The position numbers and the translations under genes were made by a program. Below, one piece after another: positions 26,471-33,766 of a stretch of DNA of 33,766 bases. This DNA comes from an uncultured Bacilli bacterium. Its GTDB lineage: Bacteria > Bacillota_I > Bacilli_A > RF39 > UBA660. How positions within the stretch are numbered: the stretch's first letter is position 1; the number at the start of each line of letters is the position of its first letter. The stretch spans positions 1 to 33,766 of the forward strand of contig CALVQX010000006.1 in NCBI GenBank assembly GCA_944358405.1, given 5' to 3'. The notes beneath the pieces are model-generated. The model did no database searches and had not been told where the DNA came from. It worked only from the letters and a program-made list of their open reading frames with translations.

Positions 26471-26518
26471 AAAGTAGCCAAAAAAATATCTTTTCATAGA
26501 CTATTATAGGTGATAAAA

Positions 26519-26809
26519 ATGTATGAAAGAGCAACCAAAAAGGTAATAGTAGATGCTGGACATGGGGGAGATGATCCTGGTGCAATAGGGAATGGACTAC
26601 AAGAAAAAGATCTAAATTTACAAGCGGCACAATATATGTATAAGAGATTACAAGAGTTAGGAATACCATCAACAATCATAAGGGATAGTGATGAAACTCT
26701 ACCAAAAGATTCTAGAATTGAAAGAGTACAAGAAGTATTAAATAGCTATGGAAATACCCCTGATGTAATATTAATTTCTAACCACATAAATGCGGGAGGA
26801 CATACTTAG
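26519..26809 (+). pseudogene. Truncated N-acetylmuramoyl-L-alanine amidase (Amidase_3)
   Basis: The first 90 residues match the N-terminal half of an Amidase_3 domain: VIVDAGHGGDDPGAIG (zinc His), QEKDLNL (zinc Glu) and LISNHINAGG (zinc His). The frame then stops after GHT, where a complete enzyme would continue for about 80-120 residues including the catalytic Glu (as in VLIECGYL of the CwlD-like protein in this window). It is therefore cut off and very likely inactive. The start ATG follows AGGTGATAAA; a GTG at 26510 overlaps that site. What follows has no similarity, so the break is probably the left edge of an inserted or recombined segment. Confidence 0.8.
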
Positions 26810-27332: not shown

Positions 27333-28757
27333 ATGAAAATGAGTGATGATTGTAAAAAAAAATGTCAGATTTTTACTCCTAAAAACAATGTAAAAGAGAT
27401 GTTAGATTGGGTTGGATATATAAAGAATTTATATGGAAAAAAAATAATTGAACCAAGCTGTGGACAAGGTAATATACTTGTTGATGTAATTGAAAGGTAT
27501 ATTGTAGACGCTATTAATAATAATTATACAAAGGATGAAATTAGAAAAGGATTATCACAAGATATTTATGCTATTGAGTATGATCCGAAACACTATAATA
27601 AATGTATAGATAATATTAACCTAATTCTAAAAAAGTATAATATTGGAAAAGTTGATTGGAATATATATTGTGGAGATTCTTTAAAAATTAATTTAAAAAT
27701 GAAATTTGATTACGTCGTAGGAAATCCGCCTTATATTAGTTATAAAATGTTAGATGAACAAACAAGAAAATATGTTAGAGAAAATTTTAGAACATGTACA
27801 AAAGGCAAATTTGATTATTGCTATCCATTTATTGAAAAAGGGGTTGAACTTTTAAAAAAAGGAGGAAAAATAGCCTTCTTGGTTCCTGGTAGTATTTTTA
27901 AAAACGTATTTTCAAGTAATTTAAGAGAATATTTAAAAGAGGATATAATTGATATTTATGACTATGCTACGAAGAAATTATTTAATGAATATGCAACAGG
28001 AGAAAAGAAAAAAATTCTTACGTCTTCTATAGTTTTTATTTTAGAAAAAGGAAGTAAAAATGGCACATTGAATTATTACAATTTAGATAATAAAAACAAG
28101 ATAGAAGTTGAAAAGAAAAAATTGGGAAATAAATGGATTTTTAATGAAATTTATATTGGTCAAAAAAGATTTGGAGATTATTTTAAGGTTTCAAACTCAA
28201 TTGCAACTTTGTGTAATAAGGCATATGTCATCACCGAAAAAGATGATTTATTTTATAATAAGTCAGAAAAGAAGATTATAAAAAATGCAGTTAGTCCAAA
28301 AAGTATAGAGCTAAACAAAAAAGAAAAAATAATATTTCCATATTATTATAATTCAAAAGAAAGACTTGTAAGAATAAATGAACAAAATTTTTCTGCAAAT
28401 TTTCCTTGCACGGAAGAACATTTAAAGAAATTTATTACTGAATTAAATAATAGAAAATCTGATAAAAATATACAATGGTTTGAATATGGTAGAAGTCAAG
28501 CTTTGAATGATATGGATAAACCTAAATTATTATTATCAATTATAGTTACTGGGAAAATTAAACTATATATTTTATCTAAAGATACTATACCTTATTCTGG
28601 TATATATATAATACCTAAAAAAAATATGACATTGGATATGGCAAAAGAGATTCTTGAATCAAATGAATTTCTTGATTATATAAAAAGTGTGGGAATCAAT
28701 GCAAGTGGTGATTCATATAGAATTACAAGTAAGGATATAAGTAATTACTATTTTTAG
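27333..28757 (+). CDS. Eco57I-like adenine-specific DNA methyltransferase
   Basis: The protein is a class I N6-adenine DNA methylase using S-adenosylmethionine. The N-terminal FTPKNNVKEMLDW is the lead-in found in such methylases, motif I is EPSCGQGN (residues 40-47) and the catalytic motif IV is NPPY (131-134). Motif VI-VIII type sequence follows (LLKKGGKIAFLVPGSIFK). Residues about 200-474 are a compact target-recognition region (FKVSNSIATLCNKAYVI, YYYNSKERLVRI) typical of Eco57I-type single-chain enzymes, but without a fused nuclease. It is the first gene of the island operon; the GHKL gene follows 11 bases later. Self-protection methylation is the likely role. Confidence 0.9.
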   Translation: MKMSDDCKKKCQIFTPKNNVKEMLDWVGYIKNLYGKKIIEPSCGQGNILVDVIERYIVDAINNNYTKDEIRKGLSQDIYAIEYDPKHYNKCIDNINLILKKYNIGKVDWNIYCGDSLKINLKMKFDYVVGNPPYISYKMLDEQTRKYVRENFRTCTKGKFDYCYPFIEKGVELLKKGGKIAFLVPGSIFKNVFSSNLREYLKEDIIDIYDYATKKLFNEYATGEKKKILTSSIVFILEKGSKNGTLNYYNLDNKNKIEVEKKKLGNKWIFNEIYIGQKRFGDYFKVSNSIATLCNKAYVITEKDDLFYNKSEKKIIKNAVSPKSIELNKKEKIIFPYYYNSKERLVRINEQNFSANFPCTEEHLKKFITELNNRKSDKNIQWFEYGRSQALNDMDKPKLLLSIIVTGKIKLYILSKDTIPYSGIYIIPKKNMTLDMAKEILESNEFLDYIKSVGINASGDSYRITSKDISNYYF

Positions 28758-28768
28758 GAGATGATAAA

Positions 28769-31222
28769 ATGGAAAAGATAAAATTTAATGTTTCTTCAAA
28801 GACAGCACGACTAATAGGTAGAGAAAATATTTCTGATTCAAATGGTGCAATAATAGAGTTAGTAAAAAATGCATATGATGCTGATGCGGATAGTGTATAC
28901 ATAAAATTTGATATAATTTTTGAAAATATACCAGAAAAAATTATTGCTTCCGAAGTCAAAGATTATTTTAATAAAGAAGAGTATAATGTATTAACATCTT
29001 TATATGATCAAAAAGGTGATGTTTTAATAAGAAGAAACAATTTGACAGACGAACAGGAACAAACTTTAAAAAGTTTATTATTTAGTAAAAATAGTATTAT
29101 TATATTAGATAATGGTACAGGTATGAATGAAAACATAATTAAAACTATATGGATGAATATCGGTACAAGTGACAAAGAAATAAATGCATATAGTAAAAAA
29201 GGAAGAATAAAAACAGGTGCTAAAGGAATAGGAAGATTTGCTTTAGAAAAACTATCTCAAACAACAACAGTTTATTCAAAAACAGAAAATGATAAGTTAG
29301 TGTATTGGAATCTTGATTGGATGCAATTTGATAAAAAGAATTTATTAGATGAAATAAAAGCTGATGTTGGTGTTCTTGATTCTAATTTTTATGATATTGT
29401 ATCAAAATATATTGATCCAACTGAATTAAACCAAAGAAATATAAATATTAATTCAGGTACTTTAATTATCCTTTCTGGAACAAGAGAGGTTTGGGGGGAT
29501 AGGATATATAATAGAATTAATAATAATCTAAATAGTATAAATCCCTTTGGTAATGTAGATACATTTAATGTTTATATTAACAATATTGTAAAAAAAGATT
29601 ATAATTATTCGCCACAAAATACATTTTTATCTGAAGAAGATTATGATTACATAATAAGTGCAGAATATGATGGCAGTAACAATATTATTATTAATTTAAC
29701 AAGAAATGAGGTTGACTTAACAGCAACTGATGACCAAAGAGTAATAAATGATAAAGTATACAAATTTGATATAAATGATTTTTGGAGAAGAGATGCATTT
29801 AAGAAATCACCATATAAAAAAGAAGAGTATTCATCTACTTTAGTTGAAAAATATGATGTACTTGACTTAATGAATAAAACAACACTTGAAGAAATTAAGA
29901 AAATAGGTAAATTTAATCTTCAATTTTATTTTTTGAAGTCAGGTAAAAGTGAATTTAACATTATTAAAAATATAAAAGTAAGCCGAAGAAAAAAACTTTT
30001 ATCATCATTTTCAGGTATTAAAATATATAGAGATAATTTTAAAGTTAGGCCATATGGTGAAGAAGGCCCAATGTATGATTGGTTACAATTGGGATCTCGT
30101 GTTCAAAGTAGTCCAGCAGGAATTGCTCATCCAACAGGCTCTTGGAGAGTTAATACATATCAATTAATTGGTAATGTAAATATAAGTAGAATGAATAATC
30201 CGAATTTAGTAGATATGGCGAATAGAGAAGGTCTTGCATTAAATGATACTTACTATTTATTTGTCGAATTAATACAAAATATTATTTCAAAATTTGAATA
30301 TGATAGACAGTATATATATAGAGAATATGGCTCATGGCTAAAAAAAAATATTGATGCTATAACTCCAACTGCTGTGATACAAAAAAGTATAGTTGATGAA
30401 AAAGAAAAAAATCAAAAAAATGAACTTGATTTTTCAGATGAAGAGTATAAAGAAGCTATTTATCAAACCATAAATGATAAGAGAAAATCTGTTGATACAC
30501 AGAGAATTATGATGAATTTTAGTTCTGTTGGTGTAACTGCAAATACTTTTGCACATGAAATGAAAAGTATAGCTACAAATTTATCAAGTAGGAATAAACA
30601 ATTAAAAATATGTATTGATAATATTTTACAAAACAAAGAATTTGATGGTCCTGATTTTTTAAATCCATATATTCCGTTAGAGAACGGAGAGCAAAATGAT
30701 ATTTTATTAAGTAAATGGCTAAAATTAATTATGGATAGTGCAAGTAAAAAAAATTCTAAGGTTGAAAAAATATCATTGTTAGATTTCTTTAGAGAGTTAT
30801 ATGATGATTGGGACGGTTTATTAGAAAAAAAATCGATAAAACTGAATGTTAATAATGAGAATGATTGTTACGTTAATTGTGAAAAAACAGATTTATATTT
30901 GGTTTTTAATAATCTCATATTAAACTCGGCATATTTTTTAGAACAAGAAATAAATGGAAGAGAACGCTCAATTGATATATCTTTTATTGAAGAAAAAGAT
31001 GATGTTGTTTTTACATTTCAAAATAATGGCCCAAAATTAGACAAAAAATATACTAGTACTCCTGATATAATATTTGAAGCAGGAGAAACAACAAAAGAAA
31101 ATGGCACAGGACTAGGCTTATGGATATGCAAAGATTCAGTTCAAAGAAATAATGGTGAAATTCATGTTATACCTTGCGATGTTGGATTTAAAATTAAAAT
31201 AAAATGGCCAAAGGTGGATTAA
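28769..31222 (+). CDS. Large ATPase with two GHKL domains (MORC/Hsp90-like plus histidine-kinase-like)
   Basis: This 817-residue protein has two GHKL (Bergerat) ATP-binding folds. The first, at the N-terminus, has N-box E30-LVKNAYDADA, DNGTGM with D114, and GAKGIGR (150-156), like MORC, MutL and Hsp90 ATPases, which dimerise on ATP. The middle (about 200-560) is unassigned. Near residue 596 is an H-box-like FAHEMKSI with H596. The C-terminal domain has a kinase N-box (NLILNSA, N715 and N719), a G1-like QNNGPK with Asn for Asp, and G2 GTGLGLWICK. AGGAGATGAT precedes the start. The receiver gene follows after one base, so a phosphotransfer pair is likely. Confidence 0.88.
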   Translation: MEKIKFNVSSKTARLIGRENISDSNGAIIELVKNAYDADADSVYIKFDIIFENIPEKIIASEVKDYFNKEEYNVLTSLYDQKGDVLIRRNNLTDEQEQTLKSLLFSKNSIIILDNGTGMNENIIKTIWMNIGTSDKEINAYSKKGRIKTGAKGIGRFALEKLSQTTTVYSKTENDKLVYWNLDWMQFDKKNLLDEIKADVGVLDSNFYDIVSKYIDPTELNQRNININSGTLIILSGTREVWGDRIYNRINNNLNSINPFGNVDTFNVYINNIVKKDYNYSPQNTFLSEEDYDYIISAEYDGSNNIIINLTRNEVDLTATDDQRVINDKVYKFDINDFWRRDAFKKSPYKKEEYSSTLVEKYDVLDLMNKTTLEEIKKIGKFNLQFYFLKSGKSEFNIIKNIKVSRRKKLLSSFSGIKIYRDNFKVRPYGEEGPMYDWLQLGSRVQSSPAGIAHPTGSWRVNTYQLIGNVNISRMNNPNLVDMANREGLALNDTYYLFVELIQNIISKFEYDRQYIYREYGSWLKKNIDAITPTAVIQKSIVDEKEKNQKNELDFSDEEYKEAIYQTINDKRKSVDTQRIMMNFSSVGVTANTFAHEMKSIATNLSSRNKQLKICIDNILQNKEFDGPDFLNPYIPLENGEQNDILLSKWLKLIMDSASKKNSKVEKISLLDFFRELYDDWDGLLEKKSIKLNVNNENDCYVNCEKTDLYLVFNNLILNSAYFLEQEINGRERSIDISFIEEKDDVVFTFQNNGPKLDKKYTSTPDIIFEAGETTKENGTGLGLWICKDSVQRNNGEIHVIPCDVGFKIKIKWPKVD

Positions 31223-31223
31223 T

Positions 31224-31886
31224 ATGAAAGAATATAAAATTGGAATTATTGAGGATGATTCGGAGGAATTAAATTCAATTAAAAGGACTATATATACTCA
31301 TCTATATTCCAATCATACAATTATATATAAGGATTATGATTTGAATAATAAAACTTTAAATTATGCTGATATTATAGATGAAATCAAAAAAGATATTCTT
31401 GATGATAGAATTATGCTATTAATTATTGATAATAAATTAGTTGTTGAAGGCAACAGATTAAAAGGCACTTCAATTTATGAAGAAGTAAAAAAGATAGCTA
31501 GTGATTTCCCAGTTATCATTATGACTAATTATAGAGATGAAGCTTATGATAGTGACTATGTAGATCCGGATAAAGTTTATGACAAGGAAAAATTCTTTTT
31601 GAATGGGGAATATACTAATGAAAAGATTAATTCAATTTGCTTGTCAATTGAAAAATATAGTAAATTAAAGAAAAATATAATTGCTGAAAAAAATAGACTT
31701 ATTGATGAATATAAGAAAGAAAATGTTGATGATGGTCAAGATAAATTAAATGAATTATTAAAAGTTGAGTTAGAAATGAAAAAATACACTCCGGTAGAAA
31801 CAACATATTTGGAACAGTTAATATCTCCTGAATATGTGAAAGAAATAGTTGAATTATTGGATGAAATAAGGGGTAAATTAGATTAA
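31224..31886 (+). CDS. Receiver-domain protein without output domain
   Basis: The first 125 residues fold like a response-regulator receiver: acidic pocket E10-D11-D12 (GIIEDD), putative phospho-acceptor D69 (LLIIDNKL), Thr101 (VIIMTNY) and a candidate Lys in the DKVYDKEKF segment. The insert GNRLKGTSIYEEV after D69 is normal. The rest (about 130-220) is a helical, charged tail (KKNIIAEKNRLIDEYKKEN) with no DNA-binding or enzymatic domain that I can see. It starts one base after the GHKL gene, so it is probably its partner. It could gate the nuclease or helicase. Confidence 0.8.
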   Translation: MKEYKIGIIEDDSEELNSIKRTIYTHLYSNHTIIYKDYDLNNKTLNYADIIDEIKKDILDDRIMLLIIDNKLVVEGNRLKGTSIYEEVKKIASDFPVIIMTNYRDEAYDSDYVDPDKVYDKEKFFLNGEYTNEKINSICLSIEKYSKLKKNIIAEKNRLIDEYKKENVDDGQDKLNELLKVELEMKKYTPVETTYLEQLISPEYVKEIVELLDEIRGKLD

Positions 31887-31907
31887 ATTATAGAGTGGTG
31901 TAGTATA

Positions 31908-32540
31908 ATGAAGTATAAAGATTTTAGAGATTTTAAGATAGTTAGAAATTGTAAAAGAGAGTATAAAAATTATAAATCATATCTACCGAATTTGGCTGAT
32001 GATTTTAAACATAGATGTGCTTACTGTAATATGCTTGATAAATATATAAACCAAGGTTATCCAATAGATCATTTTATACCTCGCGAAGTTTATGAAAAAG
32101 CAAAATTAGCGGAGTTAGAATATGATTATAATAATTTGATGTATTGCTGTCCGAAATGCAATAATTCTAAAAGTTCTCAGTATGAAGGTAATATATATGA
32201 TGGTAGTTACAAAAATGAAATGTTTTATAATCCTGTTGATATTGATTATAATAATATTTTTTACAGAAACGAATATGGTGGAATATCATCTGAAGATGTT
32301 AAGGGAAAAGATATGATAATTAATTTAAAATTATTTTCTCCAATATATCATTTTTCATTTTTAATTGAAGAAGTAACGGATGTAGTTGATAAATTAGATA
32401 AAAAAATTGAAGAGACAACAGATCCAATTGAAAAAGAGTATTATAACGAAGCATATATAAAGTTAAGTAAATTTTTAAGAAAAATAACAGTTTTATTTAA
32501 TTGTAATTATTATAATAATTCTGTAAAAAAGGATAATTAA
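31908..32540 (+). CDS. HNH endonuclease
   Basis: An HNH nuclease of 210 residues with zinc-binding cysteines: C37 and C40 (CAYC), the metal His in IDHFIP (D54-H55), the Asn of YNNLMYCCPKCN (N76) and C81, C84, then K88 (SKSS). This order is classic for McrA-like and GmrSD-linked HNH domains. The C-terminal 100 residues carry helices and no further recognised domain. It lies 21 bases after the receiver gene in the same operon, and it is the best candidate for the cutting or effector activity. The ribosome-binding site is weak (GAGTGGTG). Confidence 0.88.
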   Translation: MKYKDFRDFKIVRNCKREYKNYKSYLPNLADDFKHRCAYCNMLDKYINQGYPIDHFIPREVYEKAKLAELEYDYNNLMYCCPKCNNSKSSQYEGNIYDGSYKNEMFYNPVDIDYNNIFYRNEYGGISSEDVKGKDMIINLKLFSPIYHFSFLIEEVTDVVDKLDKKIEETTDPIEKEYYNEAYIKLSKFLRKITVLFNCNYYNNSVKKDN

Positions 32541-32545
32541 TATAT

Positions 32546-32768
32546 TTGATAGCAATAGAATATAAAGGCGTTTAAATTATATCTGAAAAAGAGATAAATA
32601 GTGATTAAGTAGTATATTGGGACAATAAGACTCTGACTAAATCTTCAAAATATGATATATCTTCAGAAAAAGAAAAGAGTTTTAAAGAATAATTTAGGCA
32701 AAAGTAATTATTTAGATATAAAAAAAGATAGTGGTTATTTAGTTAAGATTTATGAAAATTTCCATTAG
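32546..32768 (+). pseudogene. Remnant of an unknown gene
   Basis: One frame reads LIAIEYKGV, stop, IISEKEINSD, stop, VVYWDNKTLTKSSKYDISSE and on to KSFKE, stop. The next frame then continues GKSNYLDIKKDSGYLVKIYE before its stop at 32766-32768. The amino-acid makeup is gene-like, and two in-frame stops plus a shift suggest decay. I cannot name the family. Confidence 0.4.
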
Positions 32769-32858
32769 TTAAGAACAATAAATTATATTCAAAATATTTA
32801 ATGATTGAAAAATTGTTTTGATAAGAAAGATTAATTTAAGAACGAAAAATAATTATTC

Positions 32859-32891
32859 AAGGGTATCATAGTTAAATGATGCTCTTTTTTT
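32859..32891 (+). terminator. Strong intrinsic terminator before the helicase gene
   Basis: GGGTATCAT (32861-32869) and ATGATGCTC (32876-32884) pair over 9 bp with two G-T pairs, flanked by AA/TT, loop AGTTAA, then Ts to 32891. Confidence 0.8.
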
Positions 32892-32930
32892 ATAAGTTTG
32901 TTTAAAAATAAGGGAAATATTGAAGAAACA

Positions 32931-32939
32931 TGGTATAAT
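32931..32939 (+). promoter_or_regulatory. Extended -10 promoter of the helicase gene
   Basis: TGGTATAAT is a TGn extended -10, 18 bases before the ATG at 32958. No good -35 is present. The helicase can thus be expressed apart from the methylase operon. Confidence 0.6.
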
Positions 32940-32957
32940 TATACTGGAGGTTATACT

Positions 32958-33766
32958 ATGTTTCATGAATTAATTAAAAAAATATGTGATGAATGGTATA
33001 GTTCGGATAAATGTAAAATAAAGAACATTATAAATTACATGATAGAGCAAGATAAATTAAGAGATGCTCAAATAGAATCAATAAAATTATATTTGTTCTT
33101 TAAAATATATTGCAAAAATCAATCTTTAGAGAGACTTTTTAACGAAGGATATTTTTTACAAAATATAGATTTAGATGAATTACCTATATCTAAAAAATTA
33201 AATGATTTTTTATGTGATAATACTGCTGCAAGACAATTATATGAAATATCATTAACTGATGATAATTACAAAGAATTACAAGAAGAAATAGAGAAAAATT
33301 ATTTAACATTAGATTTTAAATCAATCTTTAAAAATTTTTTTCATAATACTGATTATGCTAATTACATTTACTCATTGCCAATGGGAGCAGGTAAAACTTT
33401 TTTAATGTCGGCTTTTATATATCTTGATTTGTATTTTGCTATGAATGAGCCATATAATAAAGCATTTGCACATAATTTTATTATTCTGGCTCCATCCGGA
33501 TTGAAGAGCTCTATTGTACCTAGTTTAAAAAAGATAAAAGACTTTAATGTGACATGGATTTTTCCTGAACCAATAGCAAGTAATTTAAAGAAAATTTTAA
33601 AATTTGAAATATTAGATGCTGTTAAAACTGATAAAAAAAGTAACAAAATAAAAAATCCCAATGTTGCTAAAATAGCCCAATATCAACCATATAAAGATAT
33701 GTTTGGAGTAATATTGTTAACAAATGCCGAAAAAGTTATATTAGATAAAGTAAAAATAGAGAATGA
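32958..33766 (+). CDS. DEAD/DEAH-type helicase (3' partial)
   Basis: The frame is open from ATG 32958 to the right edge, 269 codons. CTGGAGG lies 7 bases before the start. After about 130 helical residues it shows motif I as LPMGAGKTFLMSA (Walker A G143-AGK-T147) and motif Ia-like FIILAPSGLKSSIVPSL, the layout of superfamily 2 helicases in type III and other restriction systems. The rest (DEAD box, helicase C) lies outside. It is a separate transcript from the methylase operon yet is likely part of the same system. Confidence 0.82.
   Translation, partial: MFHELIKKICDEWYSSDKCKIKNIINYMIEQDKLRDAQIESIKLYLFFKIYCKNQSLERLFNEGYFLQNIDLDELPISKKLNDFLCDNTAARQLYEISLTDDNYKELQEEIEKNYLTLDFKSIFKNFFHNTDYANYIYSLPMGAGKTFLMSAFIYLDLYFAMNEPYNKAFAHNFIILAPSGLKSSIVPSLKKIKDFNVTWIFPEPIASNLKKILKFEILDAVKTDKKSNKIKNPNVAKIAQYQPYKDMFGVILLTNAEKVILDKVKIEN

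Follow-up and report, generated by a model that had tools for sequence, protein, structure and literature searches.

A compact four-gene set encoding a DNA methyltransferase, a MORC-like ATPase fused to a kinase core, a receiver and an HNH nuclease, found within a mobile element of an uncultured Bacilli bacterium

The closest described systems

In the portions of the literature available to us, the closest prior work concerns two kinds of proteins. The HEF_HK/Response_reg_2 pair is two-component-like, with HNH genes reported among its neighbours (Bellieny-Rabelo 2021, PMC8011034), and paraMORC1, found in restriction-modification (R-M) operons, 'might also co-occur' with HNH endonucleases according to the sections seen of Iyer 2008 (PMC2292703). 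The former study also speculates on signalling that controls R-M and notes that restriction systems can act as selfish stabilisers of mobile elements (PMC8011034). A GHKL ATPase and a nuclease are joined in VcSduA, a type I-D Shedu protein that loses its anti-phage activity when either the ATPase or the nuclease is mutated (PMC12137116, part of the text).

Here we describe a compact and apparently unnamed set of four genes that is shared by many bacteria and some viral sequences, with at least one archaeal case. One copy lies in the window, by which we mean the whole stretch of DNA analysed, namely the complete contig C6 of 33766 bases from genome G000, an assembly of 1.32 Mb in 72 contigs. 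The features of interest are the following.

26510..26809, + strand: N-terminal part of an Amidase_3 gene interrupted by the element in which the system lies (Amidase_3 profile, boundary sequences)
27333..28757, + strand: MT, 474 aa, N6-adenine DNA methyltransferase with an NPPY motif, the presumed self-marking enzyme
28769..31222, + strand: HK, 817 aa, with a MORC-like GHKL+S5 ATPase at the N terminus, then a coiled coil, the His596 helix and a C-terminal HATPase_c
31224..31886, + strand: RR, 220 aa, receiver domain (Asp69, Thr101, Lys121) and C-terminal helices
31908..32540, + strand: HNH nuclease, PtuB/TIGR02646-like, 210 aa
32958..33766, + strand: partial, possible SF2 helicase (weak NF046055 match), 3' of the four-gene unit and outside it

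As in the HEF_HK pair, HATPase_c_3, a His helix and HATPase_c are combined in one soluble protein, with a receiver gene adjacent and an R-M neighbourhood. Both ATPase families were matched by all 52 HK rows examined, 50 of which come from the four-gene unit or contig-cut relatives while L040 represents another subfamily. None of these rows, the window included, matched the HEF_HK model (PF19191) at E ≤ 0.01; as a control, the same model found matches in 6 of 198 genomes. Likewise, Response_reg_2 (PF19192) had no match to the window RR at E ≤ 0.1 and was absent among the 25 most frequent families listed for 77 RRs, although an individual RR other than the window's may match it among the 50 rarer families. 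The control partner in L260 matched at 3.4e-14, and 1 of 66 partners from viral contigs matched as well. The control HEF_HK loci encode an HK of about 990-1000 aa next to a C5 methylase and a partner of ~590-640 aa (neighbours Pfam-checked in one of three loci, L260, as PF00145 and Response_reg_2), whereas the four-gene unit has an N6 methyltransferase, a 220 aa receiver and a separate HNH. With a profile of the HK family, the HEF_HK controls scored 154-187 bits compared to 997 for the window. The unit is a variant related to the already described dual-GHKL/receiver/R-M kind that leaves the HEF_HK model unmatched.

The other comparisons are more distant. ParaMORC1 shares the GHKL+S5 ATPase with a conserved C-terminal extension and the location in R-M operons, but the sections of PMC2292703 that we saw give neither a kinase or receiver reading nor a four-gene unit, a distinction by description only. 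MORC ATPases have the fold of HK residues 7-517 and differ in that HK carries a fused histidine-kinase core. HNH is related to the PtuB of Septu (PtuAB) and retron Ec78 (PADLOC, E = 2.4e-13), but the Septu nuclease has a PtuA-type partner where the unit has MT, HK and RR; HK and RR had no PADLOC match to PtuA, which was also missing from the 25 of 42 MT matches listed. VcSduA resembles the unit in using a GHKL ATPase with a nuclease for phage defence, but is one protein with a PD-(D/E)xK nuclease, and no methylase, kinase core or receiver is described in the part of PMC12137116 seen.

The original prediction held that no named system (it listed DISARM, BREX, Mza and Detocs) has exactly this set. 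In agreement, HK and RR were unmatched in PADLOC 2.0.0 at E ≤ 0.1, but the prediction overlooked that dual-GHKL proteins and receivers linked to R-M had already been described (PMC8011034; for the GHKL part, PMC2292703). The four-gene unit itself is not described in the passages seen of these two papers, nor in those of PMC12839542 and PMC7824862, and no name for it was found in the open-licence PMC literature, most subscription journals being beyond reach. No phage assay for this HK family is reported in the literature examined.

Gene content and linkage across genomes

The genes, strand and spacing of the first four genes are as originally described, with gaps of 11, 1 and 21 bases between MT, HK, RR and HNH, and the Pfam searches bore out the domain readings of an Eco57I-class N6 methyltransferase, HATPase_c_3 plus HATPase_c, and HNH. 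MT matched PF07669 (3.2e-23) and the PADLOC family MTase_II (2.5e-47), and its nearest solved structures are 8cxz/7lni, which we take to be C. difficile CamA, and M.TaqI. The NPPY motif is present in 76 of 78 family MTs longer than 400 aa. HNH matched PF01844 (1.7e-6) besides the PtuB family of PADLOC, with NCBIfam PtuB and TIGR02646 matches below cut-off, and its Cys37, His55, Asn76 and Cys81 are kept in 78 of 78 sequences.

To collect relatives, genome contigs were searched with an alignment of five HKs (the window, a relative of 82% identity and three plasmid homologues), which yielded at least 589 candidate stretches, at least 420 of them with a relative. Our dataset of 85 loci consists of the window, the best 80 of these 420 or more genome relatives and 4 plasmid loci. 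The nearest relative, L041, is from a metagenome-assembled genome (MAG) of an uncultured Bacilli bacterium with an HK that is 82% identical. All four genes are found together in 77 of the 85 loci. Iterated profiles built on the same 85 loci labelled HK in 85, RR in 83, MT in 81 and HNH in 79, and placed all four near HK in 76; the 77th is L043, where an overlapping frame call masks the RR (30% identity, 216 residues aligned). In a few loci (L045, L057 and L083) a gene is split into two frames. Of the eight loci without the full set, five (L063, L070, L072, L075 and L113) end within or just past the unit at a contig end, and L040, a Campylobacter plasmid of the other subfamily, has a cytosine methylase. 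Linked methyltransferase and endonuclease genes, as in type II R-M systems, are the rule with the exception of L051 and L052 (Lachnospiraceae), which keep HK, RR and HNH while no MT was found in the fetched 18.5 kb; this is odd for a plain restriction system.

The hosts include Bacillota, Bacteroidota, Spirochaetota, Pseudomonadota, Verrucomicrobiota and one Methanolobus MAG. MT is the first gene in the window, most Bacillota and Treponema, and the last in Bacteroidota, Pseudomonadota, Verrucomicrobia, Methanolobus and Sulfurovum, among others. Beyond these genes, each neighbour cluster is shared by 5 of 82 loci at most. An independent sample of 19 viral-contig loci with HK scores of at least 376 contained all four genes in 17 cases, and the other 2 stop at contig ends. 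Among 392 genomes drawn from the phylum, three besides the window's own had an HK match at E ≤ 1e-60: G674 with all four genes, and G601 and G760 with MT, HK and HNH in place and an unlabelled small frame at the RR position.

We also examined the co-variation of the genes. Pairwise distances in 73 loci were correlated at 0.93 for HK and RR, 0.87 for HK and HNH, and 0.89 for RR and HNH, while those of MT with each of the three gave r values of 0.66-0.69 overall and 0.30-0.35 in the MT-last loci. Wherever they are labelled, RR and HNH occupy different frames and no frame bears both labels, so that the tie between them comes solely from neighbourhood and co-variation. A FastTree phylogeny of 154 HKs, from which 11 close relatives and short rows were left out, was rooted on three HEF_HK proteins. 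All HNH-linked HKs fell into a single 96-leaf group with an SH-like support of 98, whose 5 leaves without HNH are all contig-cut, and the clade of the window was recovered with 38 rows and a support of 100. Long branches meet elsewhere in this tree, and it was therefore used only for these two groups. The idea that the target-recognition part of MT is a fast-changing specificity module was unsupported, since identity in the C-terminal bins of 40 residues is 43-53%, similar to that of most catalytic bins (465 pairs in the window's clade).

The original prediction also included a terminator, a promoter and a helicase as fifth gene. The fifth frame, with a start at 32898 (TTG) or at 32958 (ATG), is cut by the contig end at 33766, and a weak match to NF046055 alone (E = 0.0018, 51 residues) speaks for a helicase. 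One terminator-like hairpin (32859-32886) compares with an average of 0.9 in shuffled sequences and 61 promoter-like sites with 63.4 expected from shuffles, so neither signal stands out. The original prediction named homologues that separate in other genomes as its refuting condition. Genes one to four remain linked in different phyla, but the helicase fails this condition and was rejected as a fifth member: a phmmer search with the 270 residues available found only the fragment itself in the 85 loci at E ≤ 1e-5. At the same position the 82% relative (L036 1-3391, G230) has a NUDIX gene followed by a 998 aa helicase (PLDc, ResIII, Helicase_C, DUF3427), the two being perhaps a second defence module. 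A profile of the 998 aa helicase found relatives beside only 3 of 82 loci and left the window fragment unmatched; the helicase counts thus cover two families, that of the fragment and that of the 998 aa protein.

An amidase gene as a recurrent insertion site

The four-gene unit of the window lies within a serine-recombinase element inside an amidase gene, which is a recurrent insertion site. The amidase frame in the window stops after 99 residues, and the left edge of the element is located near 26797-26809. Amidase_3 profile positions 1-79 are covered in the window and positions 85-173 on contig C26 (L137). By eye, the amidase half on C26 has LysM-like repeats. It is preceded by a frame of 187 residues, itself without a Pfam match, that is 97% identical to residues 369-555 of a large serine recombinase, confirmed with Pfam, that the G069 element (L242) carries, and the left end of the G069 element shares the first 22 bases of the window's element after GGAGG at the break. 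C6 and C26 are probably the two ends of one element.

Among 78 genomes of the same family, the open frame is 150 residues or shorter in 25 of 57 amidase matches, the window's own copy and two contig-edge cases included. The sequence AAYGCNGGWGG was present at the break in all 20 fetched short-frame sites (L234-L253). In 8 of these 20 the second amidase half was found 6.3-17.2 kb further on, always with a recombinase homologue in between, and one further site also has a recombinase homologue.

To quantify the cargo, 91 proteins of at least 150 aa were extracted from 17 of the 20 sites, leaving out recombinases; this stretch may overrun the element where the right edge was not found. Compared to 91 control proteins, the cargo had 6 versus 2 C5 methyltransferases, 6 versus 1 D12 methyltransferases, and 6 ResIII and 5 AAA_21 domains versus at most 1 each, all small counts against controls that were taken from contig starts and themselves contain restriction genes (2 C5 methyltransferases, DpnII). 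The number of PADLOC families matched was 469 in the cargo and 182 in the control.

At E ≤ 1e-12, HK occurs in only 2 of 385 genomes of the order, the window's own included, as expected for mobile DNA. Several other copies of the unit are located on plasmids, on viral contigs or beside large serine recombinases, as seen in the smaller part of the loci that was examined for such a context. At one four-gene copy (L139 12751-16817, G674) three recombinase genes, one of them shortened, lie in a row.

Protein folds, conserved residues and proposed function

The original prediction offered a phospho-relay or a MORC/MutL-like clamp as alternatives, and structure matches indicate that both occur in one polypeptide. 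HK matched HATPase_c_3 (9.1e-15) and HATPase_c (8e-14), and its AF2 model has a mean pLDDT of 83.9, with a poor segment at residues 585-594 adjoining His596. Mouse Morc3 (5ix2) is matched by residues 7-517 with Z 18.3 and rmsd 3.5 over 310 residues, so that at fold level this is the GHKL+S5 ATPase of MORCs, and the kinase core of HK853 (6azr) by residues 595-817 with Z 19.9 and rmsd 5.9 over 195 residues. Foldseek also lists MORC2 solved with DNA. Glu30 and Asn34 of the first ATPase are present in 83 of 83 sequences, one truncated row aside. His596 and, in the second ATPase, Asn715 and Asn719 are kept in 84 of 84, and glycines 779, 781 and 783 are invariant except in one truncated row. The residues assigned to the kinase His, N box and G2 box of two-component proteins are in place.

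The G1 box differs. Its Asp is Asn (Asn752 in the window, 31022-31024) in 40 of 40 members of the window's clade (the window and L041-L080 without the short L075) and Asp in 44 of 44 others. Among 61 HKs from viral contigs there are 58 with Asp, 2 with Asn and 1 with Ser, and one of the Asn rows, L142, belongs to the clade of the window. In other GHKL proteins a substitution of this kind impairs the binding of nucleotide. Kinase activity and canonical autophosphorylation are therefore uncertain in this clade, for which the Asn is the strongest evidence against plain kinase activity; it may mark a phosphatase-biased or altered-nucleotide kinase domain.

For RR, the predicted receiver did not emerge from Pfam, in which the window protein matches no family at E ≤ 0.1, but from its AF2 model and its relatives. 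The model (mean pLDDT 90.9) has a receiver domain followed by about 90 residues of helices and matches receiver structures in Foldseek (best E 2.3e-4), and Response_reg is matched by 50 of 77 family RRs at E ≤ 0.1 (best 1.1e-5). The receiver residues are conserved, with Asp69, Thr/Ser101 and Lys/Arg121 each in 81 of 81 sequences and acidic residues at positions 10 and 11 in 80 of 81, the remaining one having a gap. No DNA-binding domain was found in RR with Pfam, the AF2 model or Foldseek.

The best explanation, to which we assign a probability of about 0.55, is a restriction system that is mobile and guarded by methylation, its nuclease being phospho-gated. It draws directly on the linkage of the four genes, their predicted folds, the conserved catalytic and phospho-acceptor residues and the mobile context of the window's and several other copies, and VcSduA offers an analogue. 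MT would methylate the recognition sites of the host and HNH would cut unmodified phage or plasmid DNA. HK would act as the gate: its MORC-like N-terminal ATPase would close around DNA or a DNA-bound partner, and the ATPase state would pass via the coiled coil to the histidine-kinase core, which would set the phosphorylation of RR, which in turn would license or restrain HNH. That HNH is the cutting arm, DNA state the signal and HNH the target of RR is what we infer from these data, and an anti-phage function is likewise presumed. That the unit is of restriction type is highly probable; given this, phospho-gating is reasonably likely for the family and less so for the clade of the window. A more far-reaching version is less likely than not. 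In it, a MORC-type DNA clamp fused to a histidine kinase would read the state of the DNA and phosphorylate a receiver, which would switch HNH, and the change from G1 Asp to Asn in the window's clade would have re-tooled the kinase pocket for another nucleotide or for phosphatase output.

In a rather unlikely alternative, HK of a restriction system would solely be a MORC/MutL-like ATP-driven DNA clamp or loader, and in the window's clade its kinase core and the receiver would dock to each other with no transfer of phosphate. The matches of the N-terminal half to MORC ATPases, including MORC2 with DNA, the retained catalytic Glu30 and the loss of the G1 Asp throughout the clade are all consistent with this, as is the DNA looping proposed for MORCs and paraMORCs in the sections seen of Iyer 2008 (PMC2292703). 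However, His596 and the RR residues Asp69, Thr101 and Lys121 are invariant or nearly so in the same rows, which would be needless for a mere scaffold. The kinase-receiver architecture, the R-M linkage and the R-M-controlling signalling speculated on in PMC8011034 could also suggest an ordinary cytoplasmic two-component regulator of the expression of a type II methylase-nuclease pair, but such a regulator is improbable given an RR made up of a receiver and helices without a detected DNA-binding domain, and an HK in which a MORC-like ATPase takes the place of the sensor domain. Equally improbable is a selfish stabiliser of mobile elements, with killing by HNH upon loss of MT and defence as a by-product. 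Restriction systems can behave in this manner (PMC8011034) and several copies, among the part of the loci examined for this, are on plasmids, viral contigs or recombinase elements, but the nuclease is kept without a linked MT in L051 and L052 and the ATPase-receiver pair is left unexplained.

If the phospho-gated reading is true, restriction would be governed by phosphorylation, beyond target methylation alone, and a small bacterial model of MORC-type ATPases would become available, with nuclease activity as its read-out. The four-gene set is compact, occurs in many phyla and can readily be cloned.

HK also belongs to a wider family on viral contigs. A search of these with a single HK protein found no relative, while the HK alignment found 92, of which 80 were kept. 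All four genes are present in 17 of these, among which L154 and L155 nearly duplicate L153. HK was present in 79 of the 80 loci and in 73 the next gene followed within 120 bases on the same strand. These partner genes have one invariant Asp (66 of 66, after seven near-copies were dropped) and the HKs one invariant His (61 of 61 in a length- and size-limited set). The Pfam receiver model was matched by only 7 of the 66 partners at E ≤ 0.001, and the term receiver-like therefore refers to the aligned motif for most of them.

Two single loci are of separate interest. In Salipiger (L039 6422-10406), an IS66 transposase gene ends ~110 bases before HK and the N-terminal ATPase motifs are absent from the HK frame. 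On a Chlorohelix plasmid (L129 1-12349), a distant dual-GHKL protein and a 714 aa partner are encoded next to genes for a cysteine desulfurase, a DUF4007 protein and a PAPS reductase, a setting suggestive of a modification island of the phosphorothioate type.
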